Positions 99 through 18,720 of a stretch of 22,170 bases of DNA are shown in pieces. Source of the stretch: Candidatus Desantisbacteria bacterium CG1_02_49_89 (GTDB lineage: Bacteria; Desantisbacteria; UBA1551); the NCBI GenBank assembly GCA_001871075.1, contig MNUP01000110.1:1-22170 (forward strand), given 5' to 3'. Positions within the stretch are counted from its first letter, which is position 1, and each line of letters begins with the position of its first letter. A program made the translations under genes and the position numbers. The notes under the pieces were generated by a model. That model was not told the DNA's origin and ran no database searches. It worked only from the letters and a program-made list of their open reading frames with translations.

Positions 99-134
99 TG
101 ATTACATTGATTAATAAAAAGATTACAATGATTA
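99..134 (+). repeat. Left arm of GATTACA-type words before the GxxExxE gene
   Basis: Two copies of a GATTACAnTGATTA word occur at 99-113 and 121-134, ending about 15 bp before the start of the GxxExxE gene. Their reverse complements occur three times just after that gene (549-611), so the gene lies between inverted arms. Confidence 0.65.
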
Positions 135-149
135 TCAAAGTGAGACACT

Positions 150-536
150 ATGGGAAAGAAAGACGAATTCAGCGACTTAACTGAAAAGATCATCGCGGCA
201 TGTTTTGACGTCCACGGCGAGCTTGGCCCGGGATTTGTGGAAAAGATATATGTAAATGCCTTGAAAGTCGCATTGGATGAAAGGGTGTTAAAGCAGGAAA
301 CAGAAAAAGAATTCAGCGTACAATTCCACAATAGCCCGGCTGGTCAGTTCAGAGCCGATATAGTTGTTGAAGATTGCGTGATCATTGAAATAAAGGCAAT
401 AGAAGGATATATGCCAAAAATATTCGAAGCCCAGGTGATCTCGTACCTGAAATCATCGGGACTAAAAGTAGGTTTGCTGGTAAATTTCGGGAACAGGAGC
501 TGTGAGATACGGAGATTAGTAAATCCTAATTTTTAA
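150..536 (+). CDS. GxxExxE family protein (PD-(D/E)XK nuclease-like)
   Basis: This 128-residue protein carries the signature of the GxxExxE family: GPGFVEKIY near residues 27-35, the family's G-x-x-E-x-x-Y spacing. It is followed by a strand pair FRADIVVEDCVIIEIKAI (about 67-84) whose Asp and Glu-x-Lys resemble the active-site pattern of the PD-(D/E)XK nuclease fold. YLKSSGLKVGLLVNFGN near the C-terminus is also typical, and the length matches the family. No biochemical role is established that I know of; nuclease activity is inferred from the fold. The ATG at 150 has only a weak purine-rich leader. The gene reads more AT-rich than the genes downstream and stands alone between inverted word arrays (99-134 and 549-611), which suggests it entered as part of, or into, a repeat element. 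Confidence 0.85.
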   Translation: MGKKDEFSDLTEKIIAACFDVHGELGPGFVEKIYVNALKVALDERVLKQETEKEFSVQFHNSPAGQFRADIVVEDCVIIEIKAIEGYMPKIFEAQVISYLKSSGLKVGLLVNFGNRSCEIRRLVNPNF

Positions 537-548
537 TTTACTTTAAAT

Positions 549-611
549 AATCACTTTGCAATCATTTTTAAAATAATCACCGTAATCATCTTTTAAAAAT
601 CACTGTAATCA
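549..611 (-). repeat. Right arm of TGTAATCA-type words after the GxxExxE gene
   Basis: Three copies of AATCAC-n-GTAATCA-like words occur at 549-564 (diverged), 575-588 and 598-611. They are inverted relative to the copies at 99-134 and end directly before the ribosome binding site of the next gene. Nearly the same word recurs at 11476-11533 before another Gfo/Idh gene. Confidence 0.7.
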
Positions 612-625
612 AAAAGAGAGGAATA

Positions 626-1633
626 ATGGAAAAGAAAATAAGGATCGGGGTGATCGGGCTGGGTATGGGGTGGTACCACTGCGATATGTACAAAAATATG
701 CCCGAAGCTAAAATACTGGCGCTGTGCGATTCTGATCCGGCAAGGCTGGACGCCGGGCAGAAGGCGTTCGGGGCGGAGCTCAAATTCACAAAATACGAGG
801 ATATGCTGAAAGTCAAAGAGCTGGACGCGGTCGCGGTCGCGACCCCGAATTTCCTGCACAAGCCCATGACGATAGCGGCGCTGGAAGCGGGCAAGCACGT
901 GATGTGCGAAAAGCCAATGGCGCTGGACGCGGCGGAAGCGCAGGACATGGTCAGCGCGGCGAAAAGCGCGAAGAAAAACCTGATGATACATTTCAACTAC
1001 CGCTACGCGCCCGAGTGCCAGTTCCTGAAGAAATATATTGACAGCGGGAACCTCGGCAGTATTTACTACGCCAAAACCGGTTATTTGCGGCGCCGCGGGA
1101 TCCCCGGAAGGCAGTGGTTCACCAGAAAGGACCAGGCAGGCGCGGGAGCGCTTTTCGATATAGGCGTGCACGCGCTGGACCTCGCGCTGTGGTTCCTGGG
1201 CCACCCGAAGATCCTTTCCGTGTCAGGCGTTACCTACGACAAGTTCGGTTACAAGATGAACAGTAAGAACTGGGTTTTTGACGTGGATGATTTCGGCAGC
1301 GGGTTCATAAAAATGGAAGGCGGCAAAACGCTCTATCTTGAAACAAGCTGGGCCGCGAACATACAGGACAAACTCTATATGACCCTTCTGGGAGATAAGG
1401 CAGGCGTCCAGAGGGACGGCGGGACAACCACGATCCTTGCGGAGGAGAACGGCGAGCTTGTTGACGTCACCCCTGCCAGTTATCCCCCGTGCATTAATGC
1501 CCAGAAGGAATTCGTGGATTCGATAATCGAGGGAAGAGAGCCGGCTGCAAGCGGTGAGCAGGGCCTTGTCGCGATGAAGATCCTTGACGCCATAGCGAAA
1601 TCCTCAAAAACCGGCAAAGAAGTAACATTTTAG
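626..1633 (+). CDS. Gfo/Idh/MocA family NAD(P)-dependent oxidoreductase
   Basis: This is a complete 335-residue sugar or cyclitol dehydrogenase-like protein. The N-terminal Rossmann domain opens with GVIGLGMG (residues 8-15), and the acidic residue ending strand 2 is in LCDSD (about 33-37). The family EKP motif is at 95-97, with Lys96 the expected catalytic or cofactor-contacting lysine. The C-terminal alpha/beta domain carries GALFDIGVHALD (174-185), with Asp178 and His182 in the usual catalytic positions. It therefore looks active, oxidising a hydroxyl of a sugar or inositol-like substrate with NAD(P); the substrate is not predictable. The ATG at 626 follows AGAGAGG at good spacing. The related gene at 11554 has the same FDIGVH/LDIGVH arrangement and a similar word repeat in its leader. 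Confidence 0.9.
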   Translation: MEKKIRIGVIGLGMGWYHCDMYKNMPEAKILALCDSDPARLDAGQKAFGAELKFTKYEDMLKVKELDAVAVATPNFLHKPMTIAALEAGKHVMCEKPMALDAAEAQDMVSAAKSAKKNLMIHFNYRYAPECQFLKKYIDSGNLGSIYYAKTGYLRRRGIPGRQWFTRKDQAGAGALFDIGVHALDLALWFLGHPKILSVSGVTYDKFGYKMNSKNWVFDVDDFGSGFIKMEGGKTLYLETSWAANIQDKLYMTLLGDKAGVQRDGGTTTILAEENGELVDVTPASYPPCINAQKEFVDSIIEGREPAASGEQGLVAMKILDAIAKSSKTGKEVTF

Positions 1634-1663
1634 ACACAGATTGCCACGGATATCCACGGATTA
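1634..1663 (+). repeat. CCACGGAT word repeat directly after the stop codon
   Basis: Immediately after the stop codon come ACACAGATTG, CCACGGATAT and CCACGGATTA, three related words of about 10 bp. The inverse words (AATCTGTGG, AATCCGTG) occur before genes at 6938-6967 and 13318-13336. Confidence 0.6.
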
Positions 1664-1688
1664 TAATATTGTGAGATTGAGAGATTTA

Positions 1689-1724
1689 CCCCCACAGATT
1701 TTTTATGAAATCTAGACGCGGGGG
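1689..1724. repeat. Long imperfect hairpin
   Basis: CCCCC (1689-1693) pairs with GGGGG (1720-1724), and AGATTT (1696-1701) pairs with AAATCT (1708-1713) around a 6-nt loop. Asymmetric bulges separate the two stems. It could weakly terminate transcription from the upstream gene, but no T-run follows. Confidence 0.45.
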
Positions 1725-1748
1725 TTCCTTATGAAAGATTGTAAGATT

Positions 1749-1774
1749 GTTCCAAAGGAATCCCTTCGGGAAAC
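1749..1774. repeat. Short 26-bp palindromic element (GGRATCCC type)
   Basis: The stretch reads GTTCCAAAGGAATCCC then TTCGGGAAAC. It resembles segments at 9267-9292, 11406-11431 and 13256-13281, all built on TCC(C)-A/T-AAGGGATCCC, suggesting a small dispersed hairpin family. Confidence 0.4.
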
Positions 1775-1810
1775 TAAAGTTGATTTATTTAAATAAATTC
1801 CCTGCAGTTG

Positions 1811-1842
1811 CGTTGACACGTTGATACGCTGACACGTTGACA
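1811..1842 (+). repeat. Octamer tandem array, four units
   Basis: Four 8-bp units follow one another exactly: CGTTGACA, CGTTGATA, CGCTGACA and CGTTGACA, trailing into CG. The array lies about 25 bp before the start codon of the MFS transporter gene. Confidence 0.75.
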
Positions 1843-1867
1843 CGCTTTTAAAATAAACGGGAAAATA

Positions 1868-3115
1868 ATGAGCGACAAAAATCCGCCGGGCTTGGACGGG
1901 TGGAGAAGGAGGATCTTCGCCACCCTCTGGGTCACATACGCGAGTTTTTATCTCTGCAGGGTCAACCTTGCGGTCGCGATACCCAAGATAATAGAAGATA
2001 CGGGTTTCACGCGTTCCGCGATGGGGCTCTTGGGGAGCATTTTTTTCGTTGTGTACGCGGCAGGACAGTTCATAAACGGGCAGCTCGGGGACAGGTGGAA
2101 CCCCCGCTTTCTCATATTGACAGGCGCAATATGCTCTGCCTGCGCGAGCATTCTTTTCGGCTTTAGCAGCGTGTTCGCGGTAATGGCGGTGCTGTGGGGC
2201 ATGAACGGGTACTTCCAGGCAATGGGCTGGTCTTCCTGCGTAAAGGTCCTTACGAACTGGTTCCCGCACAGCAAAAAAGGAATGATCTCCGGGCTTTTCT
2301 CCACTTCATATTACCTGGGGAACGTGCTTTCATGGTTTCTCGCGGGATGGCTGCTGCTCTATTTCAGCTGGAGGGTCTCGTTCTGGGTCCCGGCTATCCT
2401 GTTCCTCGGCGCCGCGGTCCAGTTCCTCATATTTGAGAGGAACAGCCCTGGATCAGCGGGCTTTAAACCTGAAGCCGTATCCGCTGGCGCTGAGAACCCG
2501 GCGGAACTGGTAATGCAGGGGCTTCCGCTCCTTTCCAACCCCGGGCTCTGGCAGGCGGGATTTGCGGCGATGTGCCTCAGCATCATGTCTTCCGGGTTCA
2601 TATACTGGATCCCGACTTATTTATACGAAGAGATCGGTTTCAGCATATCCGGCGCGGCTTTCCGCGCCCTGGTCTTTCCCCTTGCCGGATGCGGCGGCGC
2701 TATGTTCGCGGGATGGGCAAGCGACAGGCTTGCAGGTTCAAAACGCTCGCCGGTCGCCGCGGCAATGCTTTCAGCCGCGGTATTCCTCGTCCTGCTCCTG
2801 CCGGGTATCAAGGGTGCCGGCATCCTGATCGTGGCGCTGGTTGCCCTGATGGGATTTGCGATAAACGGGCCCCAGATGCTTCTTGCCGTGACCCTCGCTA
2901 TGGATTTCGGCGGGAAGGAGAAGTCGGCTTCAACCGCGGGATTTATTGACGCGATGAGTTACGTGGGGGCGGGCATCGGCGCTTTTACCGCGGGTTTTCT
3001 GGTTGACAGGTTCGGCTGGAAAACGGTATTCCAGTTCTGGGCAGGCGTTTTAATAGCTACGATATTAATGGTTTTGCTGGTCTGGAGAAAAGAAAATCTC
3101 CGTCATGTTGGATAA
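1868..3115 (+). CDS. MFS transporter, organophosphate:phosphate antiporter (OPA)-like
   Basis: This is a complete 415-residue polytopic membrane protein with the hydrophobic pattern of a 12-helix major facilitator. The first helix ends in FYLCRVNLAVAIPKI (about 27-41), and the segment YFQAMGWSSCVKVLTNWF followed by KKGMISGLFSTSYYLGN matches the conserved 'GxxQ-GWxxxxxxxxxWF...RG' region of GlpT/UhpT-type (OPA) carriers. That family exchanges phosphorylated sugars or glycerol phosphate for phosphate across the inner membrane, although distant members carry other organic anions, so the substrate is open. The GDR-like loop (QLGDRW, about 74-79) fits the MFS A-motif. It sits between a Gfo/Idh gene and a URO-D-like gene with only a 53-bp gap downstream, so it probably shares a transcript with the latter. 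The leader has only a weak ribosome binding site. Confidence 0.85.
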   Translation: MSDKNPPGLDGWRRRIFATLWVTYASFYLCRVNLAVAIPKIIEDTGFTRSAMGLLGSIFFVVYAAGQFINGQLGDRWNPRFLILTGAICSACASILFGFSSVFAVMAVLWGMNGYFQAMGWSSCVKVLTNWFPHSKKGMISGLFSTSYYLGNVLSWFLAGWLLLYFSWRVSFWVPAILFLGAAVQFLIFERNSPGSAGFKPEAVSAGAENPAELVMQGLPLLSNPGLWQAGFAAMCLSIMSSGFIYWIPTYLYEEIGFSISGAAFRALVFPLAGCGGAMFAGWASDRLAGSKRSPVAAAMLSAAVFLVLLLPGIKGAGILIVALVALMGFAINGPQMLLAVTLAMDFGGKEKSASTAGFIDAMSYVGAGIGAFTAGFLVDRFGWKTVFQFWAGVLIATILMVLLVWRKENLRHVG

Positions 3116-3129
3116 GCAGTGTGTTTTTG

Positions 3130-3160
3130 CGATGAACGACGCACGATGGACGATGCGCGA
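3130..3160 (+). repeat. CGATG/ACGA word array that includes the ribosome binding site
   Basis: Related words of about 10 bp (CGATGAACGA, CGCACGATGGA, CGATGCGCGA) fill the short gap between the MFS and URO-D-like genes. The final GAGG (3159-3162) serves as the likely Shine-Dalgarno sequence for the ATG at 3169, so the array runs into the translation signal. Confidence 0.55.
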
Positions 3161-3168
3161 GGCGTGAT

Positions 3169-4998
3169 ATGACCGGAAAAGAACGTATAAAAGCAGTATT
3201 GGCGCATAAAATACCTGATATGGTTCCGATAGCCGAGCAGCTGATCGTCAGCAAGGTGGCGAAGGAGCTGCTGGGAAGGCACGCCTACACCGGCGGCGGG
3301 GAATACAATAACGACGAGATAAAAATGCTCAAGGGCGGCCAGAGGGAATTCCTGGTCTCAAAGTTCACGCAGGACGTGCTGGAACTCTACCACACAAAGC
3401 TTGACCTGGACGCCATACCTGTGGGGTTTGTGCCGCACAAGGATGAGAAACTTCCCCTTGTCATGGAAACTGAAGCCTTTACGTACCGCTACGAAAACGT
3501 GTACGGGCCAGGCACGTTCGAGACCAGGCAGTTCACCCCGGATTCGGGCGAATTCTTCGTTGTGGATTCAAGCCTGAAAGAGAACGGGCTTGCCGTGCTG
3601 AGGAAGTGGGTGAAGGAACTTGAGAAAGGGATAAGCCGTGAGATAGTTTACGACCCCAGCCAGCTTGAGATGATAGACGAAATAAATAAAAAAGCCGGAG
3701 GCCTTAAGGCGCTGATGGGCGGCCAGGCAATGAACATACCCATGAACCAGGTCTGGCTTCAGGCCCTTGTGGATGAGCCGAAAATAGTCGAAATATTCCT
3801 TGACGTCCAGCTGTACTGGAGCATGGCACAGGTAAAGACGCTTGCCGGGCACGGAGTTGACCTGATACTGGGCGGAGGTGACCTTGCCTCAAATCACGGT
3901 CCGGTTTACTCTCCCATGACCTTCAAGGAAGTGGTTGCTCCCCGGTTCAAAACACTGGTGGATTACTGCCACAAGCTGGGCGTTCCGTATATATTCCGCA
4001 CTGACGGGGACACGAGAGCCCTGTGGTCCTCGTTCAGAGAAATAGGCGTTGACGGGCTGGGAGAGATAGACAAACAGGCCGGGATGGACGTTGGCGAGAT
4101 CCGCAACTACTTCGGGAAGGACTTCATTATTTTCGGCGGTGTTGACTGCGCCAAGACGCTTGTTTTCGGCTCAAAAGAGCAGATCTCGGAGGAAGTGAAA
4201 TACGCGGTTGAAAAAGCAGGCGCGGGCGGCGGGCTGATACTTTCAACGTCCAACTGCGTGCACTGGAACGTTCCGGCGCAGAACTACCTCTGGATGATAG
4301 AAGCGGGAAGGCAATACGGTAAATACGAAGAAAAGATAAACCACGGAGACACGGAGGCACAGAGAGATGCACAGAGAAAAACAGATGCCGCGCTGGTCGA
4401 AGAAGAAGAAAAGAAGGAAGAGCGGGCTGAACAGAAAGCGCCTGCGGCCGCGCCGGCGCCCCTGCCGCAGAATGCAGAAGTAAAAAAGGAAGACCTGAAG
4501 AAAAAGAAACGGAAGATCACGCTCGAGCAGATAGTCACGGACGTGTATCTTATAGGGACCCTTGCGGTATTCTGGATAGGAGGGATGATAGGTTATTTCA
4601 GGAAACTCGCCCCTGTTGACTGGATACTGCGGTGCGCCGCAGTGCAGCTGATGCTGACCGTGGGCGCGGTTGTCGCGACCACAATAATAAAGACCATAAA
4701 GACGCCTGAAGAAAAAAGGCAGCTTAACCCGGTCAGCCTTCTCGGCCTTGCGTTTTTCCTTTTATACTGGATCTTCTACCTTACCTGGGACCTGGAGCTG
4801 TATCCTTACATGTTTGTCAGGTTCGGCAAGTTCATGAAGATCAGCTGGTTTGTGAGTTCCATAGCGTCCCTCGCGTTTACGTCCATCGGGGAGATCATTT
4901 CGCGCGAAAAAAGCAGGAACGAAGGCCTGGGAACCTGGGCGGTACTCATCATTATATGGTTCGTGATATTCTATTTCCTGTATTACGCGATGGGATAG
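3169..4998 (+). CDS. URO-D/MtaA-like protein fused to a C-terminal membrane domain
   Basis: This 609-residue protein has two unrelated halves. Residues 1 to about 387 match the uroporphyrinogen decarboxylase superfamily, including TDGDTRALW, EIDKQAGMDVGEIR and FGGVDC in the second half of the barrel. They end in the usual MIEAGRQYGKY, where related proteins normally stop. The many copies of this family in sugar-utilisation loci have no settled function; corrinoid methyltransferases (MtaA, CmuA) are other members. Residues 391-404 (NHGDTEAQRDAQRK) are a translated repeat. They are followed by a charged and Ala/Pro-rich linker (about 405-450) and four or five hydrophobic segments (about 457-476, 486-507, 521-541, 558-576, 588-607) with no family I recognise. 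The simplest reading is that a stop was lost and a former gap became linker. An alternative is a frameshift or assembly join. Confidence 0.8.
   Translation: MTGKERIKAVLAHKIPDMVPIAEQLIVSKVAKELLGRHAYTGGGEYNNDEIKMLKGGQREFLVSKFTQDVLELYHTKLDLDAIPVGFVPHKDEKLPLVMETEAFTYRYENVYGPGTFETRQFTPDSGEFFVVDSSLKENGLAVLRKWVKELEKGISREIVYDPSQLEMIDEINKKAGGLKALMGGQAMNIPMNQVWLQALVDEPKIVEIFLDVQLYWSMAQVKTLAGHGVDLILGGGDLASNHGPVYSPMTFKEVVAPRFKTLVDYCHKLGVPYIFRTDGDTRALWSSFREIGVDGLGEIDKQAGMDVGEIRNYFGKDFIIFGGVDCAKTLVFGSKEQISEEVKYAVEKAGAGGGLILSTSNCVHWNVPAQNYLWMIEAGRQYGKYEEKINHGDTEAQRDAQRKTDAALVEEEEKKEERAEQKAPAAAPAPLPQNAEVKKEDLKKKKRKITLEQIVTDVYLIGTLAVFWIGGMIGYFRKLAPVDWILRCAAVQLMLTVGAVVATTIIKTIKTPEEKRQLNPVSLLGLAFFLLYWIFYLTWDLELYPYMFVRFGKFMKISWFVSSIASLAFTSIGEIISREKSRNEGLGTWAVLIIIWFVIFYFLYYAMG
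4339..4380 (+). repeat. CCACGGAGACACGGAG-type word repeat inside a coding region
   Basis: The array has near-tandem words (CACGGAGA, CACGGAGG, CACAGAGAG, CACAGAGA) of the kind otherwise seen right after stop codons here. It is read in frame as codons 391-404 of the URO-D-like fusion gene and lies exactly at the end of the catalytic domain. Confidence 0.75.
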
Positions 4999-5003
4999 TC
5001 ATA

Positions 5004-5155
5004 GATTACACAGATTAGAACTGCGAGATTACACAGATTCAGCGGGCTGGTTTTGCCAGTTCAAATCAGTTATATGCAAAAACAGTGATAAACTGTGTTT
5101 ACATGGTTAAATTTGTTTTAATCGGAGTAATCGTCTTTTTGAAATCTGTGTAATC
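5004..5155. repeat. Intergenic palindrome with GATTACACAGATT ends
   Basis: GATTACACAGATT occurs at 5004-5016 and 5027-5039, just after the stop of the URO-D fusion gene. Its exact 13-nt reverse complement occurs at 5143-5155, just before the ABC transporter gene. The middle (5040-5142) is AT-rich without a gene. Confidence 0.8.
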
Positions 5156-5178
5156 AATATCTAAGGATAGGAACTCAC

Positions 5179-6108
5179 ATGGCCAATGTGATAGAAACCA
5201 GTAATTTAACCAAATATTACGGCAAAGTAAAGGTTGTGAATGATGTTTCATTGAGCGTAAGAAAGGGTGAGATCTACGGATTTTTAGGCCTCAACGGCGC
5301 GGGTAAAACAACAACGATCCGTATGCTGCTGGGCATGATAAAGCCTGCTTCCGGAGAAATATTCCTGAATGGCGATAAATTGCATTTTGGTCGCCGGGGG
5401 CCATGGGATAAAATCGGGTATCTTGTCGAAATACCGTATTCATATCCGGGATTAACTGTCAGGGAGAACCTTGAAATTACAAGGAGGCTCCGGCGAATAT
5501 CGGACACAAGGTCTGTTCAGGATATAATTGACAAACTGGTTTTAAATTCACACGCGGAAAAAAAAGCGGGACATTTGTCACAGGGGAATGCCCAGCGACT
5601 CGGTGTCGCGAAGGCGATGATGCACAACCCGGAGATGCTGTTATTAGATGAACCTTCAAACGGCCTGGATCCTGCCGGCATTGCCGAGGTGCGCGATCTT
5701 CTGAGAAACCTTGCTCTCAATAATGGCGTGACCATATTCATTTCGAGCCATATTCTTGGCGAAATTTCAAAAATTGCCACTCGTATCGGCATCATTCACA
5801 ACGGCAGGTTAATCCAGGAGATCAACGCTGACAGTCTGGGGACGCTTCTTCACCGGCGCCTTCTTTTGGACGCAATTGACAGAGATGGGGCAAGAAAGAA
5901 ACTCATTGAAAAGGGTTTTACCGTGAAGTTATCTCAGGAAGGAACACTGGAAATCAAAGATGACGAAGGCGCTATAAACCATCCTGAGGAAATAGCGGAT
6001 TATCTGGCGCGCGCGGGATATCCTCCGTCTATGTTCAAGGTCGAACAGGAAGATCTGGAGTCCTATTTTTTAAGAGTGACCGGGACGAATAAAGGAAAAG
6101 AAAAATGA
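5179..6108 (+). CDS. ABC transporter ATP-binding protein
   Basis: This 309-residue protein is the ATPase of an ABC-2-type exporter. The Walker A motif is GLNGAGKT at residues 37-44. The signature loop is LSQGNAQRLGVAK (133-145), with Gln in place of the usual first Gly of LSGG. Walker B is MLLLDEPSNGLDP (153-165), with Glu158 as catalytic base, and the H-loop histidine is His191 in FISSHILGE. About 90 residues follow the ATPase core, a common extension in the CcmA/DrrA-like group. Its stop overlaps the next gene's start (ATGA, 6105-6108), so the two are translationally coupled. The pair reads more AT-rich than the flanking genes. The cargo is unknown; drug, lipid or peptide export are all possible. 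Confidence 0.93.
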   Translation: MANVIETSNLTKYYGKVKVVNDVSLSVRKGEIYGFLGLNGAGKTTTIRMLLGMIKPASGEIFLNGDKLHFGRRGPWDKIGYLVEIPYSYPGLTVRENLEITRRLRRISDTRSVQDIIDKLVLNSHAEKKAGHLSQGNAQRLGVAKAMMHNPEMLLLDEPSNGLDPAGIAEVRDLLRNLALNNGVTIFISSHILGEISKIATRIGIIHNGRLIQEINADSLGTLLHRRLLLDAIDRDGARKKLIEKGFTVKLSQEGTLEIKDDEGAINHPEEIADYLARAGYPPSMFKVEQEDLESYFLRVTGTNKGKEK

Positions 6109-6884
6109 AAGACCTGATCGCTTCCATATGGGCAGAAGACCTGAAGGTCCGGCGTTCAAAATTACTTTGGATCTCCGCGATTATATTTTCCATGATACCG
6201 TTGGGAGTCGGATTTTTAATATTGGTTTTAAGATCTCCGGGTTTGGCAGGCCACTTAGGAATAGTTAAAACCAAAGCAAACCTGTTTCTGGCGGCTGCTG
6301 ATTGGCCGGCATATATGGGATTGCTCTCTCAAACAACCGCAGCCGATGGTATATTGTGGTTTGCGTTTGTAACAAGCTGGGTCTTTGGCCGTGAATATAC
6401 CGACCATACTGTTAAAGATCTGCTGGCCCTGCCGGTATCACGGATCACAATTGTTTTATCAAAGTTTATAATATTAGTAGTATGGTGCTTGCTGCTTTCA
6501 GCGCTTATTATTATATCAGGGTTAATAACAGGGTTTGCTATATCGCTTCCTAATTTTTCGTTAAACCTTTTATATTCCGGACTGGGAAAAATCATGGTAT
6601 CCGCTGTCCTCGCCATAATTCTCATTACTCCGGTCGCATTCCTGGCAAGTGTCGGTAAAGGGTATTTACTTCCCCTTGGATTTACTGCGTCAGTGTTTAT
6701 TGTTATTCAGGTAACCAATATGCTGGGCTGGGCAGCTTTTTTCCCATGGGCAATCCCGGTTCTCTATATAACACCATCCGAACATCTTGGAGCCGTTAGC
6801 TATATTATTCTTTTGTTAACAGGCATTGCCGGAACGATATTGACACTTGCCTGGTGGCAGTACGCAGATCAATCCGGGTCATGA
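6105..6884 (+). CDS. ABC-2 type transporter permease
   Basis: This 259-residue hydrophobic protein has about six membrane segments (near residues 20-43, 75-95, 120-148, 160-190, 195-215 and 230-252) separated by short loops, the usual plan of ABC-2 permeases. The loop FGREYTDHTVKDLLALPVSR (about 94-113) matches the conserved cytosolic region of this family, in which E..  .T....L..PVSR contacts the ATPase. It overlaps the ATPase gene by 4 bp and would form the exporter with it in the inner membrane. No adjoining substrate gene is present to suggest cargo. Confidence 0.88.
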   Translation: MKDLIASIWAEDLKVRRSKLLWISAIIFSMIPLGVGFLILVLRSPGLAGHLGIVKTKANLFLAAADWPAYMGLLSQTTAADGILWFAFVTSWVFGREYTDHTVKDLLALPVSRITIVLSKFIILVVWCLLLSALIIISGLITGFAISLPNFSLNLLYSGLGKIMVSAVLAIILITPVAFLASVGKGYLLPLGFTASVFIVIQVTNMLGWAAFFPWAIPVLYITPSEHLGAVSYIILLLTGIAGTILTLAWWQYADQSGS

Positions 6885-6937
6885 GTTCTAATTTGCTGAA
6901 TGCCCGAAGGTGCTGAAAGCTGAATGTAAAATATATA

Positions 6938-6967
6938 ATCTGTGGCAATCTGTGTTAATCTGTGTCT
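6938..6967 (-). repeat. AATCTGTG 10-bp tandem array, three units
   Basis: AATCTGTGGC, AATCTGTGTT and AATCTGTGTC follow one another at exact 10-bp spacing. This begins the 322-bp gene-free stretch 6885-7206, which otherwise holds two double-hairpin elements (6986-7055 and 7132-7194) and no credible gene. Confidence 0.75.
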
Positions 6968-6985
6968 AATTTTATTTCGTGATTT

Positions 6986-7055
6986 CCTCGCCCATCCTTA
7001 CAGGTGGGCGAAGTCTCGCCCGCTGAAAGACGGGCGGAGTGCTTTCGTGGAAATC
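6986..7055 (+). repeat. Double-hairpin element, copy A
   Basis: Hairpin 1 (6989-7010) pairs CGCCCA with TGGGCG and CCT with AGG around one bulged T. The linker AAGTCT is followed by hairpin 2 (7017-7036), pairing CGCCCG with CGGGCG. The tail reads GAGTGCTTTCGTGGAAATC. The 70-bp unit recurs at 10346-10415 as its reverse complement with one mismatch by direct comparison. Confidence 0.85.
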
Positions 7056-7131
7056 TTGTGAACCTATAGCTTGGTTTTTTAAATCTCCATGAATCCCTGT
7101 AAAATATTTTTCGTGCTTTCGTAATTTCCCC

Positions 7132-7194
7132 CGCCCCGAGCAAATATCGGGGCGAGGTCTCGCCCCCGCTTATGCGGGTGGCGGAGTGGAAATC
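7132..7194 (+). repeat. Double-hairpin element, diverged copy C
   Basis: It has the same plan as copy A with different stem sequences. CGCCCCGA pairs with TCGGGGCG (7132-7154), the linker is AGGTCT, and CGCC-CCCGC pairs with GCGGG-T-GGCG (7161-7183, one bulged T). The tail is GAGTGGAAATC. Linker and tail match copy A while the stems change with pairing kept. Confidence 0.75.
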
Positions 7195-7197
7195 TTT

Positions 7198-7202
7198 GGA
7201 GG
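7198..7202 (+). promoter_or_regulatory. Ribosome binding site that fixes the start at 7207
   Basis: GGAGG lies 4 nt before the ATG at 7207. The earlier in-frame GTG at 7186 sits in the tail of double-hairpin copy C and has no such site, so 7207 is preferred. Confidence 0.75.
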
Positions 7203-7206
7203 TTTG

Positions 7207-8265
7207 ATGTTGAAAGTGGGAATTGCGGGCCTGCGCAGGGGCCAGGGCCTTTATTTCAGTTTTAAGCACTGCGCGGACGCTGAAGTGACGGCTGTTTGCG
7301 ACACGAACAAGCAGGCTGCCGAGGATTTCGGGAAGGCGAACAATGTGCCCGAGGTCTATTCAGGCCTGCGAGAGTTCCTGAGATCAAAAATAGACATCGC
7401 GGTGCTTGCAACCCCCGCCCCGCTGCACGTTGAACACGCGGTTGAGGCGCTTGAAGCGGGAAAACACGTGCTTTCAGAAGTGCCTGCGGCAATGAACATG
7501 GAAGGCTGCAAAAAACTCGTGAAAGCGGTCAGGAAAGCGCAGAAGTACGGGCTTAAGTATATGATGGCAGAGAACTGCAATTACTATCACCCTATAAGGA
7601 CGTGGAAAAAATGGGTGGACGCGGGAAAGCTGGGCAGGATATTCTACGCTGAAGCTGAATACGTGCACGACTGCAGGTCTTTGATGCTTACGCAGGACGG
7701 AAAGCCTACCTGGCGGTTCGGGTTCACTCCCCTGCTTTACCCCACGCACAGCATCGGTCCCCTGCTTATGCTCATGCAGGACAGGCTTATCCTTGCTTCA
7801 GGTTTCAGCACCGGTATTGAGGTATCGCCGGAACTTAAATCGCCCAGCATGGAAGTCGGAATTTTCAAAACAAAGAAAGGCGCAGTTGTTAAGATCCTGT
7901 GCGGTTTCAGCATAGAGCGGGAGCCGTCGCACCTTTACTATTCGCTTTACGGCACGAACGGCTCGGTTGAGACGAACAGGTTTAACATCGGCGAGACCCG
8001 TGTTTACATAAAAGGCGAGCATAAGGCATTGACAGCTATGGATATTCCGCTGGACGATCCGGATGCGCCGCCTGAGGCGAAGCTGGGCGGGCACGGCACA
8101 AGCGAATACTACCTTGTCAGAGATTATATAGAGTCGGTCCTGAAAGACACGAAACCGCCTGTGGATATTTACGACGCGATGGATTGCACCGCGCCGGGCA
8201 TCTGCGCGCATCTCTCTGCGCAGAACAACGGCAAGCCGGTCAGCATTCCCGATTTCAGGCAATAG
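7207..8265 (+). CDS. Gfo/Idh/MocA family protein with altered EKP motif
   Basis: The 352-residue product starts MLKVGIAGLRRGQG, a variant Rossmann loop. The usual EKP motif reads EVP (residues 91-93), so the conserved lysine is Val92. The second-domain motif normally reading D-x-G-x-H reads YPTHSIG, keeping His181. SEVPAA and YMMAENCNY look like recurring features of a subgroup I recall, so this is more likely a divergent family than a decayed copy. Either catalysis differs from classic sugar dehydrogenases or binding is the main role. It is followed by a GH2 glycosidase gene, and the pair is bracketed by inverted double-hairpin copies (6986-7055 and 10346-10415), suggesting a glycoside-processing function. 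Confidence 0.85.
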   Translation: MLKVGIAGLRRGQGLYFSFKHCADAEVTAVCDTNKQAAEDFGKANNVPEVYSGLREFLRSKIDIAVLATPAPLHVEHAVEALEAGKHVLSEVPAAMNMEGCKKLVKAVRKAQKYGLKYMMAENCNYYHPIRTWKKWVDAGKLGRIFYAEAEYVHDCRSLMLTQDGKPTWRFGFTPLLYPTHSIGPLLMLMQDRLILASGFSTGIEVSPELKSPSMEVGIFKTKKGAVVKILCGFSIEREPSHLYYSLYGTNGSVETNRFNIGETRVYIKGEHKALTAMDIPLDDPDAPPEAKLGGHGTSEYYLVRDYIESVLKDTKPPVDIYDAMDCTAPGICAHLSAQNNGKPVSIPDFRQ

Positions 8266-8422
8266 CAACCACGCGATTTCACACGATTTTCACTAGATGA
8301 CCTGCCGCAAAGGCGGGTCATTGCGAGCCTGAAAGGCGCGGCAATCTGATAAATAGATTGCTTCGTCGTTTCACTTCTCGCAATGACATTTCGCGTGGAA
8401 ATCTCGTGTAATCGTGTGGTTA
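8266..8422. repeat. Nested palindromic intergenic element with GTCATTGCGAG core
   Basis: The outer arms are words after the stop (AACCACGCGATTTCACACG, 8267 on) and their approximate reverse complement before the next gene (CGTGTAATCGTGTGGTT, ending near 8421). Inside are a hairpin GACCTGCC/GGCGGGTC (8299-8319) and GTCATTGCGAG (8317-8327) with its exact inverse CTCGCAATGAC (8377-8387). At the centre GCAATCT (8341-8347) pairs with AGATTGC (8355-8361). The GTCATTGCGAG...GCAATCT core is a dispersed repeat seen in many unrelated bacteria, and further copies lie at 21049-21076 and 21802-21913. Confidence 0.8.
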
Positions 8423-8425
8423 AAT

Positions 8426-8430
8426 GGAGG
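8426..8430 (+). promoter_or_regulatory. Ribosome binding site that fixes the start at 8437
   Basis: GGAGG is 6 nt before the ATG at 8437. The longer reading frame to 8383 begins inside the GTCATTGCGAG palindrome and would add 18 residues unrelated to GH2 enzymes. Confidence 0.8.
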
Positions 8431-8436
8431 TTTGGC

Positions 8437-10257
8437 ATGGTTCCTCGTCCGGAGTACCCGCGGCCGCAGTTCGTAAGAAAAGAATGGCTTAACCTGAACG
8501 GCGAGTGGGAGTTTGAATTTGACGACGCGCCCGCAAGGTTAGAGGGGAAATGGCAGGGAAAGAAGATCATCGTTCCCTTCCCCTTCCAGTCAAAGCTTTC
8601 CGGCGTCAGCGACGTTTCCTTTCACGACGTGGTCTGGTATGCCAGGAATTTCACCGTCCCGGAAAAATGGGAGGGAAAAGAGATCCTGCTCCATTTCGGC
8701 GCGGTTGATTACGAATGCTGGGTATGGATCAACGGCAGGGAGATAAGCACGCACAAAGGCGGGAACGTTCCTTTCTATCTGAATATAACCAAATACCTTA
8801 AGCCCGGTGAAAACAAGCTGATGGTTCGGGTTGAAGATAAACAGGACCCGTTCCAGCCCAGGGGCAAGCAGGTTGTGGCGCTCAAGCCCGAAGGATGCGA
8901 TTACGACCGAACGACCGGGATATGGCAGACAGTGTGGCTTGAGCCTGTCCCGCGGACAAGGATAGAATATTTTAAGATAAAAACAGAGATCGACTTCGGC
9001 AAAGATAGCTCAAAGCTCAAAGGTCAAGGGTCAAGGGTCAAAACGCAAAAACCAGATTGCAAATTGAAAATTGTAAATTGTAAATTGCAAATTGTGACTA
9101 CCGGATGGAGACCGGGGCAGGAGATTGAGGTGTGTGTATATTATAAAGGAAAAACGGTTGCAAAGAGATCAGTTGAACTTGAGAACGGGTGCGCTGCCCT
9201 GGATATTCCCGTCAGAAACCCAAAGCTGTGGTCGCCGGAGGCACCTAATATTTATGATTGCAAATTGTCCCTAAGGGATCCCGTGAGACAAATTGCAAAT
9301 TGCAAAGGTGAAATAATTGATGAAATAGAGACATATTTCGGGATAAGAACGGTTTCGGTGAAAGGAAACAGGGTCCTGCTCAACAACAAGCCGTATTACC
9401 TGAAGCTCGTGCTTGACCAGGGGTATTTCCCGGAAAGCCTGCTCGCCCTTCCCTCGGACGAAGCGGTTAAAAAAGACATAGAGTTTACAAAGGCGTTCGG
9501 GTTCAACGGGTGCCGCAAGCACCAGAAAGTGGACGACCCCAGGTTTTATTACTGGGCGGATAAACTGGGGCTTATCGTATGGGGAGAAATGGCGAACGCG
9601 AGGCCCTGGAGCAAAGCAGGAGAAGGAATATTCCTGCACGAATGGCCAAAGGCCGTAAAGCGGGATATAAACCATCCCTGCATAATCGCCTGGGTGCCGT
9701 TCAATGAGAGCTGGGGGGTGCCGGAGCTTGGCAAGGACACGCGCCAGCAGGAATTCGTGAAAAAGGTTGTGCGGCTTACAAGGGAAATGGACCCCACGCG
9801 GCTCGTGGTGGATAACGACGGTTGGGAACACGTGGACACAGACCTGGTCACGATACACGATTATTCTTTGCACGCATCCGATTACGAGAAGAATTACGCG
9901 CAGTTCAGGAAGGACAATAAAACACTCCCCGCGGTTCACAGGCCCGCGTACGCAGAAGGATACGAATATGACGGCAAGCCTATACTGATAACAGAATACG
10001 GCGGCATCGGGTATAAACTCCCCGGCAGGCAATACGCGGAAAAGGACTGGGGATATCATAATCCAGAGACAGAAGAAGCTAAGGTCATCGCGAGGTTCAA
10101 AGAAGTGACCGAAGCGATCTTCGACCTGGATTTCTGCTGCGGCTTCTGCTACACCCAGCTCACGGACATCCAGCAGGAGATAAACGGGGTGCTGACGTTT
10201 GACCGCGTCCCGAAAGTGGACCCGAAAAAAATAGCAAGAATACTGAATCAAAAGTAA
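8437..10257 (+). CDS. Glycoside hydrolase family 2 enzyme with translated repeat insertions
   Basis: This 606-residue protein has the GH2 order: a sugar-binding jelly roll (RPQFVRKEWLNLNGEWEF at the start, then VWINGREISTHKGGNVPFY near 95-113), an immunoglobulin-like domain, and a TIM barrel from about residue 302. The expected acid/base is Glu424 in FNESWG and the nucleophile is probably Glu520 in LITEYGG. This suggests a beta-galactosidase, glucuronidase or related exo-enzyme; substrate is not resolved. No signal peptide is visible, so it may act in the cytoplasm. Two stretches in the immunoglobulin-like region (about residues 192-220 and 275-291) are translations of short-word repeats. Both keep the frame and leave catalytic residues intact, so the gene is probably functional. 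Confidence 0.9.
   Translation: MVPRPEYPRPQFVRKEWLNLNGEWEFEFDDAPARLEGKWQGKKIIVPFPFQSKLSGVSDVSFHDVVWYARNFTVPEKWEGKEILLHFGAVDYECWVWINGREISTHKGGNVPFYLNITKYLKPGENKLMVRVEDKQDPFQPRGKQVVALKPEGCDYDRTTGIWQTVWLEPVPRTRIEYFKIKTEIDFGKDSSKLKGQGSRVKTQKPDCKLKIVNCKLQIVTTGWRPGQEIEVCVYYKGKTVAKRSVELENGCAALDIPVRNPKLWSPEAPNIYDCKLSLRDPVRQIANCKGEIIDEIETYFGIRTVSVKGNRVLLNNKPYYLKLVLDQGYFPESLLALPSDEAVKKDIEFTKAFGFNGCRKHQKVDDPRFYYWADKLGLIVWGEMANARPWSKAGEGIFLHEWPKAVKRDINHPCIIAWVPFNESWGVPELGKDTRQQEFVKKVVRLTREMDPTRLVVDNDGWEHVDTDLVTIHDYSLHASDYEKNYAQFRKDNKTLPAVHRPAYAEGYEYDGKPILITEYGGIGYKLPGRQYAEKDWGYHNPETEEAKVIARFKEVTEAIFDLDFCCGFCYTQLTDIQQEINGVLTFDRVPKVDPKKIARILNQK
9011..9097 (+). repeat. Two adjacent heptad arrays inside the GH2 gene
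   Basis: Six 7-bp units of CAAAGCT/CAAGGGT/CAAAACG type (9011-9052) are followed, after CAG, by six 7-bp units of ATTGCAA/ATTGTAA type (9056-9097). The total is 87 bp, or 29 codons, read without a stop. Confidence 0.85.
9257..9305 (+). repeat. ATTGCAA heptad array split by a small hairpin, inside the GH2 gene
   Basis: One ATTGCAA unit plus ATTGT (9257-9268) is separated by the GTCCCTAAGGGATCCC hairpin element (9267-9292) from two more ATTGCAA units (9292-9305). The words are those of the array at 9056-9097, and the reading frame is kept. Confidence 0.7.
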
Positions 10258-10345
10258 CCACACGATTCCACAGATTTCCACGAGATTTCTTACAGGGAAC
10301 CCTCCACCAAGATTGGCGGGCAGGCTTACGAGAACTTAAACATAG

Positions 10346-10415
10346 GATTTCCACGAAAGCACTCCGCCCGTCTTTCAGCGGGCGAGACTTCGCCCACCTG
10401 AAAGGATGGGCGAGG
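10346..10415 (-). repeat. Double-hairpin element, copy B (inverted relative to copy A)
   Basis: It is the reverse complement of 6986-7055 over 70 bp with one difference (CCTGAAAGG against CCTGTAAGG). The rest of the 283-bp gap 10258-10540 holds CCACACGATT/CCACGAGATT words after the stop, ACACGAAA words at 10416-10436, and the heptad array at 10496-10523. I see no gene in it. Confidence 0.85.
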
Positions 10416-10495
10416 AAAGCACGAAAACACGAAAAAATAAATCAGGTTTCTTTCGTTAGAAAGTAGACTTTAATTTATCTACATACTGTTCTAAA

Positions 10496-10523
10496 CGTTA
10501 CACGTTACACCTTACACGTTACA
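10496..10523 (+). repeat. CGTTACA heptad array, four units
   Basis: Four exact 7-bp units (CGTTACA, CGTTACA, CCTTACA, CGTTACA) are followed by CGTTTTA and then directly by the AAGGAGGAG ribosome binding site of the next gene. Confidence 0.8.
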
Positions 10524-10540
10524 CGTTTTAAGGAGGAGAC

Positions 10541-11317
10541 ATGCTTCCCACAGTGGACTTTTGCGGCCTTAAAGTAACGCGCCTGATCATCGGGGCAAAC
10601 CCGTTCGGGGGATTCAGCCACCAGAGCGACCAGCGCAGCCGGGAAATGGGCACCTATTATACTCCTGAGCGCATTAAGGAAACATGGCGCCGCGCCGAAG
10701 CCGCGGGCATCAATACGATGATAACCAACAATGAGTCAGCGCATGTTATCCAGGCAGTGCGCGAATACCTGGGCGAAGGCGGGAAGCTCCAGTGGATCGT
10801 GCAGGCCGCTAATTATAAAGCAGATATGTTCAAGGCTGTGGACGAAGCAGTAGAGATCGGGGCAAAAGCTATTTATTTCCACGGCGGGCAGGTGGATAAT
10901 CTATATGCAGGCAGGGATGAGAAAACCCTGCGCGCGTGGGTCAAGCACGCCCGCTCGCACAAGATCCCGGCCGGCATAGCAGGCCATTCACCGGACGTGC
11001 ACTTTTGGGTGGACAGCATGGATATAGTGGATTTCCACGCAGTGGCTTTCTTCAACTGCGGGAGCCTTCACAGCGGGAAAGGCCACAATTTCAAGCTGGC
11101 AGACGCGTTCCCCGCGGCGGAGTGCGCGCGCAGGATCAAAAAACCGTGCATCGCCTACAAGATAATGGCCGCCGGGCGCATTGACCCGGTAATGGCGTTT
11201 GAGTTCGCGTTTGAAAACATCAAGCCGGGCGACGCGGTGAACGTGGGCATGTACCGCGGTGACAAAGATAACATGGTTGAAGAGGACGCCGCCATCGTCC
11301 GCACTATACTGAGCTGA
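10541..11317 (+). CDS. Aldo/keto-reductase-like TIM-barrel protein of unknown function
   Basis: The 258-residue product begins LKVTRLIIGANPFGGFSHQ (about 10-28), resembling the first strand and loop of aldo/keto reductases. It continues with TIM-barrel-like alternation (AEAAGINTMITNNES, QWIVQAANYKAD, GAKAIYFHGGQVDNL, IPAGIAGHSPDV). The length is short for the family (about 300-330), and the catalytic Asp-Tyr-Lys-His tetrad cannot be identified, so oxidoreductase activity is doubtful. I recall similar proteins in carbohydrate loci of planctomycete- and lentisphaera-like genomes, annotated only as hypothetical. A strong AAGGAGGAG site precedes the ATG. The TGA stop is also the first three bases of the next repeat word (11315-11328). 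Confidence 0.7.
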   Translation: MLPTVDFCGLKVTRLIIGANPFGGFSHQSDQRSREMGTYYTPERIKETWRRAEAAGINTMITNNESAHVIQAVREYLGEGGKLQWIVQAANYKADMFKAVDEAVEIGAKAIYFHGGQVDNLYAGRDEKTLRAWVKHARSHKIPAGIAGHSPDVHFWVDSMDIVDFHAVAFFNCGSLHSGKGHNFKLADAFPAAECARRIKKPCIAYKIMAAGRIDPVMAFEFAFENIKPGDAVNVGMYRGDKDNMVEEDAAIVRTILS

Positions 11318-11533
11318 TTACAGTGATTTCAAAAATGATTACAGTGATTATTGAAATATAAGGAGAATAACAAATCTTGGTTTTAGTTTTTTTAAAATAA
11401 TCACCGTCCCTAAAGAACCCCTGCGTCTTGTCCCGATTCTTTTTATCGGGACTGCAGGAGTAATCAGCAGTTAGAAATCACCGTAATCATTTTCAGATAA
11501 TCACCGTAATCTGTGTTAAAATCACCGTAATCA
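11315..11533. repeat. Intergenic palindrome of GATTACAGTGATT / AATCACCGTAATCA words
   Basis: TGATTACAGTGATT copies at 11315-11328 and 11336-11349 follow the stop codon. Inverted AATCACCGTAATC copies stand at 11476-11489, 11499-11511 and 11520-11533 before the next gene. A further copy is split into AATCACCGT (11399-11407) and GTAATCA (11460-11466) by an inserted hairpin. Confidence 0.8.
11420..11458. repeat. Strong hairpin inserted in a word copy
   Basis: GTCCCGAT (11430-11437) pairs perfectly with ATCGGGAC (11445-11452) around a T-rich loop, extended by CCTGC (11420-11424) with GCAGG (11454-11458). It could act as an attenuator or terminator in the 235-bp gap, but no T-run follows the 3' arm. 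Confidence 0.65.
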
Positions 11534-11553
11534 TCGGTTAAAAAGGAGGAAGA

Positions 11554-12609
11554 GTGAAGAAGTGGAAGGTGGGTTTCGTGGGAGTGGGCGGGATAGCGAA
11601 GTACGCGCACATGCCGGGGTGGAAGAACCTGCAGGGCGCGGAGGTTGTAGCGGTTTCCGACGTCAGGGAGGATGTGGCAAAGGCGTTCGCGAAGGACTTC
11701 GGCATAAAGAACGTGTTCACTGATTACAACAAGATGCTGGAGATGGATGAGCTGGAGATAATTGACATCTGCGCGCCGAACATGATCCATTATCCCGCGG
11801 CAATGGCGGGGTTCAAGGCGGGAAAACACGTTTTATCCGAGAAGCCGCTTACCGTCACTCCGAAGCATGTCCAGGATATGATCGACGCTTCAAAGAAGGC
11901 AAAAAAGAAACTATGTTCAATACAGAACCACAGGTTCAGGGCTGAAGCGCAGGTATTGAAAAAGATGATAGATAAGGGCGAGTGCGGCGAAATATATTAC
12001 GCGAGGGCGCACGCGCTCAGGCGCAGGCTTCTTCCGGTTGCCCCGACATTCATAAAGAAAAGCCTTTCCGGAGGCGGGCCGTGCCTTGACATAGGGGTGC
12101 ACGCCCTTGACCTTACTTACTGGCTCATGGGCCACCCGAAGGTCAGATCGGTAAGCGGCGTCGCCCTTACAAAACTGGCGAAACGCGAAGACATCCACGG
12201 GGACTGGGGCGAGTGGGACAGGAAGGCGTATGACGTTGAGGACTTCGCCGCTGGATACGTGAAATTCGCCAACGGCGCCAGCCTTACCCTTGAATGCAGT
12301 TTCCTGCTGAACACAAAGGAGAATGAGGTATTTTCGGCGCAGGTATTCGGCACGGAAGCGGGCGCGTACCTGCCCTGGGGAAGCCCTCCTGAGATATACA
12401 CGGAAAAGAACCGCACTTTCATGGTGAAACAGCTGGTAGGCCTGCCGCAGGTTGCCACGCACAGCGAGGAGATCAGGCTTTTCCTTGAGGCGGTTGACAA
12501 GAACAAGGAAGTTCCCGTTCCGCCGGAACAGACGCTTGAAGTGATTAAAATACTTGACGGGGTTTACCGCTCAAGCAAGTCCGGCCGCGAGGTAAGATTC
12601 ACAAAATAA
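11554..12609 (+). CDS. Gfo/Idh/MocA family NAD(P)-dependent oxidoreductase
   Basis: This 351-residue protein has the Rossmann loop GFVGVGGIAKYAH (7-19), the EKP motif at 96-98 and GGGPCLDIGVHALD (173-186), with Asp179 and His183 in the usual active-site positions. It should be a working sugar or sugar-acid dehydrogenase. It is closer in pattern to the gene at 626 than to the one at 7207; the shared FLKKYIDSGNLGSIYYA / VLKKMIDKGECGEIYYA region shows this. The start is a GTG at 11554, supported by GGAGGA (11545-11550); no ATG gives a better leader. The 235-bp upstream gap is a word palindrome, so promoter elements are hard to separate from repeats. Confidence 0.9.
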   Translation: MKKWKVGFVGVGGIAKYAHMPGWKNLQGAEVVAVSDVREDVAKAFAKDFGIKNVFTDYNKMLEMDELEIIDICAPNMIHYPAAMAGFKAGKHVLSEKPLTVTPKHVQDMIDASKKAKKKLCSIQNHRFRAEAQVLKKMIDKGECGEIYYARAHALRRRLLPVAPTFIKKSLSGGGPCLDIGVHALDLTYWLMGHPKVRSVSGVALTKLAKREDIHGDWGEWDRKAYDVEDFAAGYVKFANGASLTLECSFLLNTKENEVFSAQVFGTEAGAYLPWGSPPEIYTEKNRTFMVKQLVGLPQVATHSEEIRLFLEAVDKNKEVPVPPEQTLEVIKILDGVYRSSKSGREVRFTK

Positions 12610-12611
12610 CC

Positions 12612-12689
12612 AGTTTATAAAGTTTACAGAGTTTACAAAGTAAACGCCGTTTAAAAACCTCTGTAAACTGTATAAACTATGTAAACTTT
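12612..12689. repeat. 9-bp word array arranged as an inverted pair
   Basis: AGTTTATAA, AGTTTACAG and AGTTTACAA (12612-12638) are in 9-bp register. The inverse units GTAAACTGT, ATAAACTAT and GTAAACTTT (12663-12689) are in 9-bp register as well. They occupy nearly the whole gap between the Gfo/Idh gene and yajQ. Confidence 0.85.
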
Positions 12690-12707
12690 GGAAACTATTT
12701 TTGGCAC

Positions 12708-12712: not shown

Positions 12713-12717
12713 TGGGT

Positions 12718-18711: not shown

Positions 18712-18720
18712 GAGTGCATT

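Follow-up and report, generated by a model that had tools for sequence, protein, structure and literature searches.

The mirrored words that lie between the genes of Candidatus Desantisbacteria bacterium CG1_02_49_89 are best explained, with a probability of about two in three, as the two inverted arms of mobile palindromes, small elements of the REPIN/MITE kind that are served by one of two proteins, GxxExxY or S23. The window analysed here is a stretch of 22,170 nucleotides (contig MNUP01000110.1; its features given below are on the forward strand). Its first-pass annotation had described intergenic words in one orientation after stop codons and in the inverse one before starts, each gap becoming a large palindrome, and had offered folding of mRNA leaders and tails or a mobile repeat as the cause.

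We counted word orientation over 1.05 Mb of this genome, with genes called by a custom script. GATTACA occupies the stop half of its gap in 51 of 57 cases and TGTAATC in the start half in 57 of 65, and CCACGA (59/70) and TCGTGG (52/62) are likewise polar. The polarity first described stands for these four words, is weaker for TTACA (187/320) and CCACGG (36/54), and is not universal, CCGTGG showing none (20/44) and GGTTAAA not being polar. Comparison with shuffled gaps, the check proposed at the time, gave 312 repeat arrays in real gaps versus 1 in shuffled ones; a word-free orientation test on the 312 arrays agrees with the polarity. Array density is 2.8 per kb in gaps versus 0.085 per kb in coding DNA, and 43% of tandem gaps of this genome hold word arrays, which thus shape its gene boundaries at large scale. 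The polarity is strand-symmetric: from either end of a gap, each word reads inward. This is how a gap filled by an inverted-arm element looks, and it is silent on transcription. "One orientation after stops, the inverse before starts" equals "inverted arms filling the gap", so that the contrast of stop and start is not the variable as such. Convergent and divergent gaps are too few (n = 21) and, as the same arrangement is predicted for them, cannot separate the two readings. Arms directly after stop codons are nevertheless a real excess: the first array begins no more than 15 nt from the stop codon in 50.4% of array-bearing gaps, compared with 19.7% under random placement (maximum 27.8% in 1000 trials), and no such excess occurs at starts (16.7% versus 19.7%).

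Four gaps of the window contain inverted pairs scoring well beyond the best of 60 shuffles, so the description of each gap as a palindrome is right for these, and not for every gap. In gap 4999-5178, the pair 5001-5075/5088-5158 (score 37 versus 26) opens with the left arm AGATTACACAGATT (5001-5039, repeat I2) and closes with the right arm ending in AATCTGTGTAATCAA (5120-5158). The pair 8266-8347/8355-8434 (51 versus 26) fills gap 8266-8436, with left arm CAACCACGCGATTTCACACGATT at 8266-8293, an inner GTCATTGCGAG palindrome and right arm TGGAAATCTCGTGTAATCGTGTGG at 8396-8434; some window gaps fold below shuffled energy, this one at -78.3 versus -45.4. The left arm TTACAGTGATTTCAAAAATGATTACAGTGATTA at 11318-11356 begins immediately behind the TGA stop (11315-11317) and pairs with ATAATCACCGTAATCTGTGTTAAAATCACCGTAA at 11491-11530 (50 versus 40). 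Finally, AGTTTATAAAGTTTACAGAGTTTACAAAG, made of 9-nt words at 12612-12652, pairs with CCTCTGTAAACTGTATAAACTATGTAAACT at 12655-12696 (42 versus 24).

Other gaps hold one arm only. Left-type arms without a partner in the gap follow the stops at 1633 (CACAGATTGCCACGGATATCCACGGATT, 1630-1664) and 10257 (CCACACGATTCCACAGATTTCCACGAGATT, 10257-10290), and a lone right-type arm precedes the ORF at 13474 (ATAATCCGTGTAAATCCGTGGC, 13316-13337); the words at 1634-1663, 10257-10290 and 13318-13336, earlier taken as parts of palindromes, thus lack a match in their own gap. A further lone left-type arm, AACCACACGATTACACACGATT (21777-21798, repeats D5 and I8), follows the stop at 21770. Three gaps that had been called unclear (1816-1850, 3116-3168 and 10491-10530) in fact obey the rule, each with 7-8 nt words in a lone start-side arm before the start codon. 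The array at 1811-1846 (GTTGACAC; 8-nt words, GTTGACACG by direct reading) precedes the start at 1868 and has an S23-type word whose left form is CGTGTCA. That at about 3130-3160 (CGATGAACGACGCACG; 7-nt words, CGATGAACGACGCACGATGGACG by direct reading) precedes the start at 3169, and its reverse complements are found after stops elsewhere in the genome. The third, at 10493-10528 (CGTTACACG; 7-8 nt words, CGTTACACGTTACACCTTACACGTTACACG), precedes the start at 10541, and in reverse complement it recurs as the left arm beside the S23 gene of locus L091. The words at 6934-6969 (repeat I3), absent from the earlier list, are right-type, that is, start-type, yet fall in the stop half of gap 6885-7206 and break the rule. 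Left-type words also occur in frame within genes: CCACGGAGACACGGAGGCACAGAG at 4341-4375, translated as NHGDTEAQRDAQRK, sits between the URO-D domain and a membrane segment of ORF 3169-4998, and the 7-8 nt words GGTCAAGGGTCAA and CAAATTGTAAATTG at 9018-9095 lie in a GH2 ORF, the same words being present on the flanks of an S23 gene in locus L094.

One pair of arms encloses a gene. The words at 549-611, which had been assigned to a palindrome of their own gap, find their partner at 99-137, on the other side of the GxxExxY gene at 150-536; the left arm (GATTACATTGATTA...GATTACAATGATTA, 99-137) and the right arm (TAATCACCGTAATC, 548-611) score 39 versus a swapped-partner maximum of 29. The encoded protein of 128 aa belongs to the PD-(D/E)XK nuclease superfamily and matches TIGR04256 (E 3.1e-36, 124.3 bits, curated cut-off 35) and PF13366 (E 5.2e-34, 117.5 bits, curated cut-off 22). 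D70, E80 and K82 are invariant in 45 homologues. A search of PDB sequences with the GxxExxY profile gave nothing useful; the structure model (pLDDT 94.7) matches the fold of Cas4 SSO0001 (E 1.5e-4), and GxxExxY is, as modelled, a protein of 125-130 aa with a Cas4/lambda-exonuclease/Hjc-like PD-(D/E)XK fold. All five GxxExxY genes of this genome, including that of the window, lie inside word arms, and four of the five outscore every swapped-partner arm pair, the remaining one (locus L002) having a weak arm score though short arms are visible. In a wider set of 78 loci, arms surround GxxExxY in 38, from many phyla, and about half of the loci have no significant arms. Arrays stand beside GxxExxY in 34 of 64 cases versus 6 of 61 at 700 nt away (p 1e-7). 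Across 41 genomes, with our own left out of the comparison, the pattern CCACRGAD-N(1-3)-CACRGAD occurs on average 10.1 times in genomes with GxxExxY versus 0.4 times in those without (p 8e-5), and S23-only genomes have 0-1 such words.

The second protein found between arms is S23/23S-IVP, a family of four-helix-bundle proteins that are relatives of Avd of diversity-generating retroelements. Most S23 genes of this genome lie inside word arms and outscore every swapped-partner arm pair, a comparable arm-score cut being passed by 2.7% of all genes; loci L088 and L092 have weak arm scores. Of the S23 loci with full flanks in other genomes, about three quarters have conspicuous own-partner arms, and arrays occur beside S23 in 32 of 43 cases versus 4 of 41 at 700 nt away (p 9e-10). 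Enclosure of either protein by arms recurs across phyla. The arms are built from short words in tandem, nearly all 7-10 nt long, whose period depends on the protein: 8-10 nt with GxxExxY and 7-8 nt with S23, a division of periods of at most 7 from those of at least 9 splitting by protein with p 9e-19. In this genome, arrays far outnumber the genes for GxxExxY or S23.

Comparison of orthologous junctions shows, at the level of sequence, that whole elements have inserted, the insert-free sites being those of Prevotella and Flavobacterium rather than of this genome. The Prevotella mutA|mutB gap carries a 557-nt GxxExxY insert where relatives mostly have 5-20 nt (one has 58 nt), and at the site of an ORF-less 146-nt palindrome with near-identical arms, three relatives have -2 to 22 nt. 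In the genome G061, stretches of the arms are 94-97% identical between the GxxExxY copy and ORF-less copies, the same arms occurring at unlinked sites with and without the ORF. At Flavobacterium nadD|gmk, 11 species have an S23 insert, and elsewhere the junction holds spacers of 43-55 nt or palindromes of other words; an 81% identical S23 element lies at another site in a related genome (G140). The earlier suggestion of a mobile repeat is supported by these insert-free junctions, by the shared arms and by the relocated S23 element. Both neighbouring genes are intact at junctions that differ by a whole element. Terminal inverted repeats and presence/absence at orthologous sites, by which MITEs are recognised, were thus both found. 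No target-site duplication was seen at the compared junctions, where relatives are too distant to fix the site exactly, and no fixed terminal sequence was found in the elements. In Herpetosiphon, 6/6 genomes searched carry the nuoF|nuoG element, so that some elements are old and immobile.

Hairpins acting in RNA between cistrons, where selection would keep the arms complementary for transcript protection, processing (RNase III) or termination, are an improbable explanation of the whole pattern. They have a precedent in 23S rRNA intervening sequences, elements that RNase III cuts out and that hold S23 ORFs flanked by inverted termini (PMC4990558), and they fit the window gaps that fold below shuffled energy and the arms that change together between two Flavobacterium groups at one junction. 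However, strand symmetry points to no transcribed strand and gives no ground for preferring RNA, no Rfam family was matched in the window, and the link between period and protein and the presence/absence of whole elements are left unexplained. The mRNA leader and tail folding proposed in the first-pass annotation may be an effect in some gaps, but it does not account for conserved ORFs within arms. About as doubtful is an origin in place, by slippage for the tandem words and template switching from one nearby repeat to another (quasi-palindrome correction) for the arms, without a mobility factor. Tandem words fit slippage, arms evolve in concert, and words vary widely between elements and, at one junction, between species; against this stand the same arms at unlinked sites of one genome, with and without ORF, the S23 element lying elsewhere in another genome, the conserved ORFs within arms across phyla and the dependence of word period on protein family.

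It is very unlikely that these are ordinary REP/REPIN sequences moved by RAYT transposases of the genome. Ten Y1_Tnp matches are present, with REP-like palindromes near two of their loci, but the inspected Y1_Tnp genes have different palindromes on their flanks (GCAGGGCTTGCCCTGC, CTCAGGCCTTTAGGCCTGAG) and lack a flanking word repeat, and what lies between word arms is S23 and GxxExxY; RAYT was rejected as mover of the tandem words. An origin by chance or from the biased composition of AT-rich spacers, to which the weak polarity of TTACA and CCACGG, the words most stressed earlier, might point, has a negligible probability and is refuted by the array counts and densities given above.

We therefore favour small mobile palindromic elements that would insert in short intergenic spacers, often directly after a stop codon, the mirrored words being the two inverted arms of one element and each arm a run of short tandem words. 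Polarity would then hold irrespective of gene strand because inverted arms present their words inward from both gap ends. Two main families are proposed, that of GxxExxY, whose words measure 8-10 nt (CACRGAT-like, GATTACAGT, AGTTTACAG), and that of S23, with words of 7-8 nt; a few copies would keep the ORF between their arms, the majority being ORF-less or reduced to one arm. The arms may extrude as a DNA hairpin or cruciform, or fold in RNA. GxxExxY and S23 appear to be helpers of the inserts, and the encoded protein may act on arms in cis and in trans, mobilising or maintaining the elements. Arm words differ between elements within one genome, so they are not simply copies of one fixed sequence. 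Our tentative suggestion, on balance doubtful, is that the class is set by architecture (word period, palindrome and helper protein) and not by sequence, the words being rewritten repeatedly in concert and unrelated palindromes replacing one another at one junction; GxxExxY or S23 would be the factor dedicated to making, reading or copying periodic arms. GxxExxY and S23/IVP, widespread families of little-understood role, would gain a testable common setting in palindromic elements at gene junctions.

REPINs are short inverted pairs in spacers, with non-autonomous copies beside few coding ones and insert-free sites in relatives. The present elements resemble REPIN/RAYT systems and bacterial MITEs in all these respects and differ in their arms, which are tandem words of 7-10 nt that change from element to element, and in carrying GxxExxY (PD-(D/E)XK) or S23 instead of a Y1/DDE transposase. 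GxxExxY is not a known transposase, though its arms are common to ORF-less copies in G061, and, unlike in DDE/HUH elements, neither target-site duplication nor fixed termini were found. With Cas4, lambda exonuclease and archaeal Hjc, GxxExxY would share the modelled fold and the PD-(D/E)XK residues, but it is a stand-alone protein encoded inside palindrome arms, with low sequence similarity to them. Intergenic heptamer repeats are known as STRR in cyanobacteria. TAACTGA is described in Beggiatoaceae (PMC4679880), and for Xanthomonas and Nostoc the words are GGGAATC and GGGGA(C/T)T, respectively (PMC4692102), with 75 convergent pairs in Xanthomonas axonopodis; like our arms, these are tandem words of intergenic spacers, 7 nt long and consistently oriented relative to start codons. 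MacGregor suggested a mobile repeat-binding protein. The reports themselves propose regulation or quadruplexes, unlike our reading, and in the available excerpts describe neither a 9-10 nt GxxExxY class nor a period-protein link; a term search of the Beggiatoaceae text turned up neither 23S intervening sequences nor four-helix proteins. The S23-type elements, for their part, share with 23S rRNA intervening sequences, for which mobility has been suspected in Coxiella and others (PMC4990558), an S23-family ORF between complementary arms, but lie between protein genes rather than inside the 23S rRNA gene and have tandem-word arms and many ORF-less copies. Under the reading favoured here, several unexplained reports, on the heptamers of Beggiatoaceae, Xanthomonas and cyanobacteria, the 23S intervening sequences and HGDTEAQ-like peptides read in frame, would all concern pieces or remains of a single type of element.

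The first-pass annotation had claimed that intergenic words take one orientation after stop codons and the inverse before start codons. In the draft genome of which the window is an entire contig (G000:C45; 2.48 Mb, 150 contigs), our own script called 847 genes and 679 gaps over about 1.05 Mb, and words were counted in gaps of 50-800 nt only (n = 538). The polarity is real: GATTACA lies in the left half of the gap in 51 of 57 cases and TGTAATC in the right half in 57 of 65, as do CCACGA on the left (59/70) and TCGTGG on the right (52/62), although the short words originally put forward are weaker (TTACA 187/320, CCACGG 36/54, CCGTGG 20/44). A search for short-period arrays that uses no dictionary of words found 312 arrays in 542 tandem gaps against 1 after shuffling, mostly of period 7 (184), 8 (51), 9 (43) or 10 (28), at a density of 2.8 per kb in gaps and 0.085 per kb in coding DNA.

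When arrays of different gaps share words, they point the same way if both are close to stops (734:114) or both close to starts (238:40) and opposite ways if one is close to a stop and the other to a start (777:126); arrays lacking a partner in their own gap obey the same rule (218:22, 44:18 and 206:43). From the gap end inward, one reads the identical word at stop and start, whichever strand the genes occupy. The rule is thus symmetric, as expected of inverted arms, and uninformative on transcription. Gene ends have one true effect, an excess of arrays just after stops: in 50% of this genome's gaps with arrays, no more than 15 nt separate the stop codon from the first array (random placement, 20%), with no matching excess close to start codons.

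The further claim that each gap forms a palindrome did not hold throughout the window. Palindromes are clear in four gaps (4999-5178, 8266-8436, 11318-11553 and 12610-12717), arms stand alone at 1630-1664, 10257-10290, 13316-13337 and 21777-21798, and three gaps previously regarded as unclear each hold a lone start-side arm of 7-8 nt words. The words at 6934-6969 are an exception to the polarity rule, and within two ORFs (4341-4375 and 9018-9095) element words are translated in frame. At 3169-4998, a URO-D/MtaA-like domain is joined to a membrane segment via element words translated in frame (NHGDTEAQRDAQRK), which resembles the fusion of two genes by an insert. A further palindromic family, GGCGAAGTCTCGCC, is nested in word-bearing gaps, with 86-nt inverted copies (95% complementary) in two gaps at 6975-7060 and 10341-10426. 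A GTCATTGCGAG...GAAGCAATCT repeat is present at 21806-21918 and at 8318-8390, the latter copy inside the arms 8266-8434. A third palindrome system in this genome consists of RAYT-like (Y1_Tnp) genes at L061 16470-17100 and L028 1700-2300 and the REP-like palindromes that accompany them (GCAGGGCTTGCCCTGC, CTCAGGCCTTTAGGCCTGAG). Separately, a CsgG/PDZ gene (18403-20028) is broken by an in-frame TAG at 18709-18711, with the frame open beyond (pseudogene, assembly error or recoding).

The arm at 549-611 pairs with 99-137 across a gene, and this enclosed ORF (150-536), a GxxExxY protein (TIGR04256, PF13366), led to the association with proteins. All five GxxExxY genes of this genome lie between inverted arms, each with its own word; in four, the arms score above every swapped-partner pair, while those of the fifth, L002, are short. 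Since the null of some tests is built from other loci that share words themselves, these tests are conservative. Most of about ten S23/23S-IVP genes (PF05635) are likewise enclosed by inverted arms, here made of 7-8 nt words. Only 19 of this genome's 715 genes have arm scores of at least 37, and 5 of the 19 encode S23 or GxxExxY as read directly from the proteins. Upstream of the GxxExxY element of L001, positions 1200-1350 show a tentative resemblance to a cyclic-di-GMP riboswitch.

The association is general. In one-per-species genomes, 38 of 78 GxxExxY loci have significant own-partner arms, in Bacteroidetes, Planctomycetes, Chloroflexi, Proteobacteria and others. The S23 loci of other genomes show the same behaviour. 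Arrays occur beside 34/64 GxxExxY genes (6/61 at control distance) and 32/43 S23 genes (4/41), and the word period follows the protein: 7, 8, 9 and 10 nt were found 1, 12, 23 and 14 times at GxxExxY and 41, 14, 1 and 1 times at S23. The word pair CCACRGAD-N(1-3)-CACRGAD, counted in 41 genomes, has 179 copies here, a mean of 10.1 over ten further genomes with GxxExxY, 0.4 over thirty without it, and 0 or 1 in each of seven S23-only genomes, a count that is supportive only, as these genomes are phylogenetically non-independent. In another genome, G009, many S23 half-matches of opposite orientation are separated by a few hundred nt, as though the S23 genes formed inverted pairs.

Sites with and without the insert were compared in Prevotella and Flavobacterium. 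In Prevotella G061, two genes, presumably mutA and mutB for the subunits of methylmalonyl-CoA mutase, are separated by a 557-nt spacer that a GxxExxY element occupies; in relatives with both flanks placeable this spacer measures 0-20 nt (one exception, 58 nt). This genome also holds ORF-less copies of the element's arms (stretches 94-97% identical), one of them a 146-nt spacer that in three relatives measures 22, 10 and -2 nt. At a Flavobacterium junction read as nadD|gmk, 11 species carry an S23 element and others short spacers of 43-55 nt, while further species have ORF-less palindromes built from different words; 7 of 12 ORF-less spacers there are palindromic beyond 200 shuffles. The S23 arms agree within each of two groups and not between them, so that both arms changed together. 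In G140 the S23 element, at 81% identity, lies at another genomic place. The Flavobacterium junction L341 carries sequence similar to the GTCATTGCGAG...GAAGCAATCT repeat. No target duplication was seen at the compared junctions. The Herpetosiphon nuoF|nuoG element is present in 6/6 genomes, and thus not all elements are active.

The GxxExxY and S23 proteins probably act on structures built by the arms, which may be DNA hairpins, DNA cruciforms or RNA hairpins. S23 proteins are related to the Avd protein of diversity-generating retroelements (PMC10053308). Cas4 SSO0001 is the nearest match to the GxxExxY model (pLDDT 94.7), with weaker similarity to Hjc and lambda exonuclease-type nucleases; D70, E80 and K82 do not vary among 45 homologues. 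Insertion into spacers, often directly after a stop, would do least harm, which may explain why genes seem to delimit the palindromes.

Such elements can be compared with REPINs, MITEs and STRRs. In the open-access papers covered by our search, no report links such words with S23 or GxxExxY genes. Among 23S rRNA intervening sequences, S23 ORFs lie between complementary ends (PMC4990558). G-rich heptamers, some in convergent pairs, are described in Xanthomonas and Nostoc (PMC4692102), and TAACTGA heptamers before start codons in Beggiatoaceae, where a role in translation was proposed and a mobile binding protein raised as a possibility (PMC4679880).
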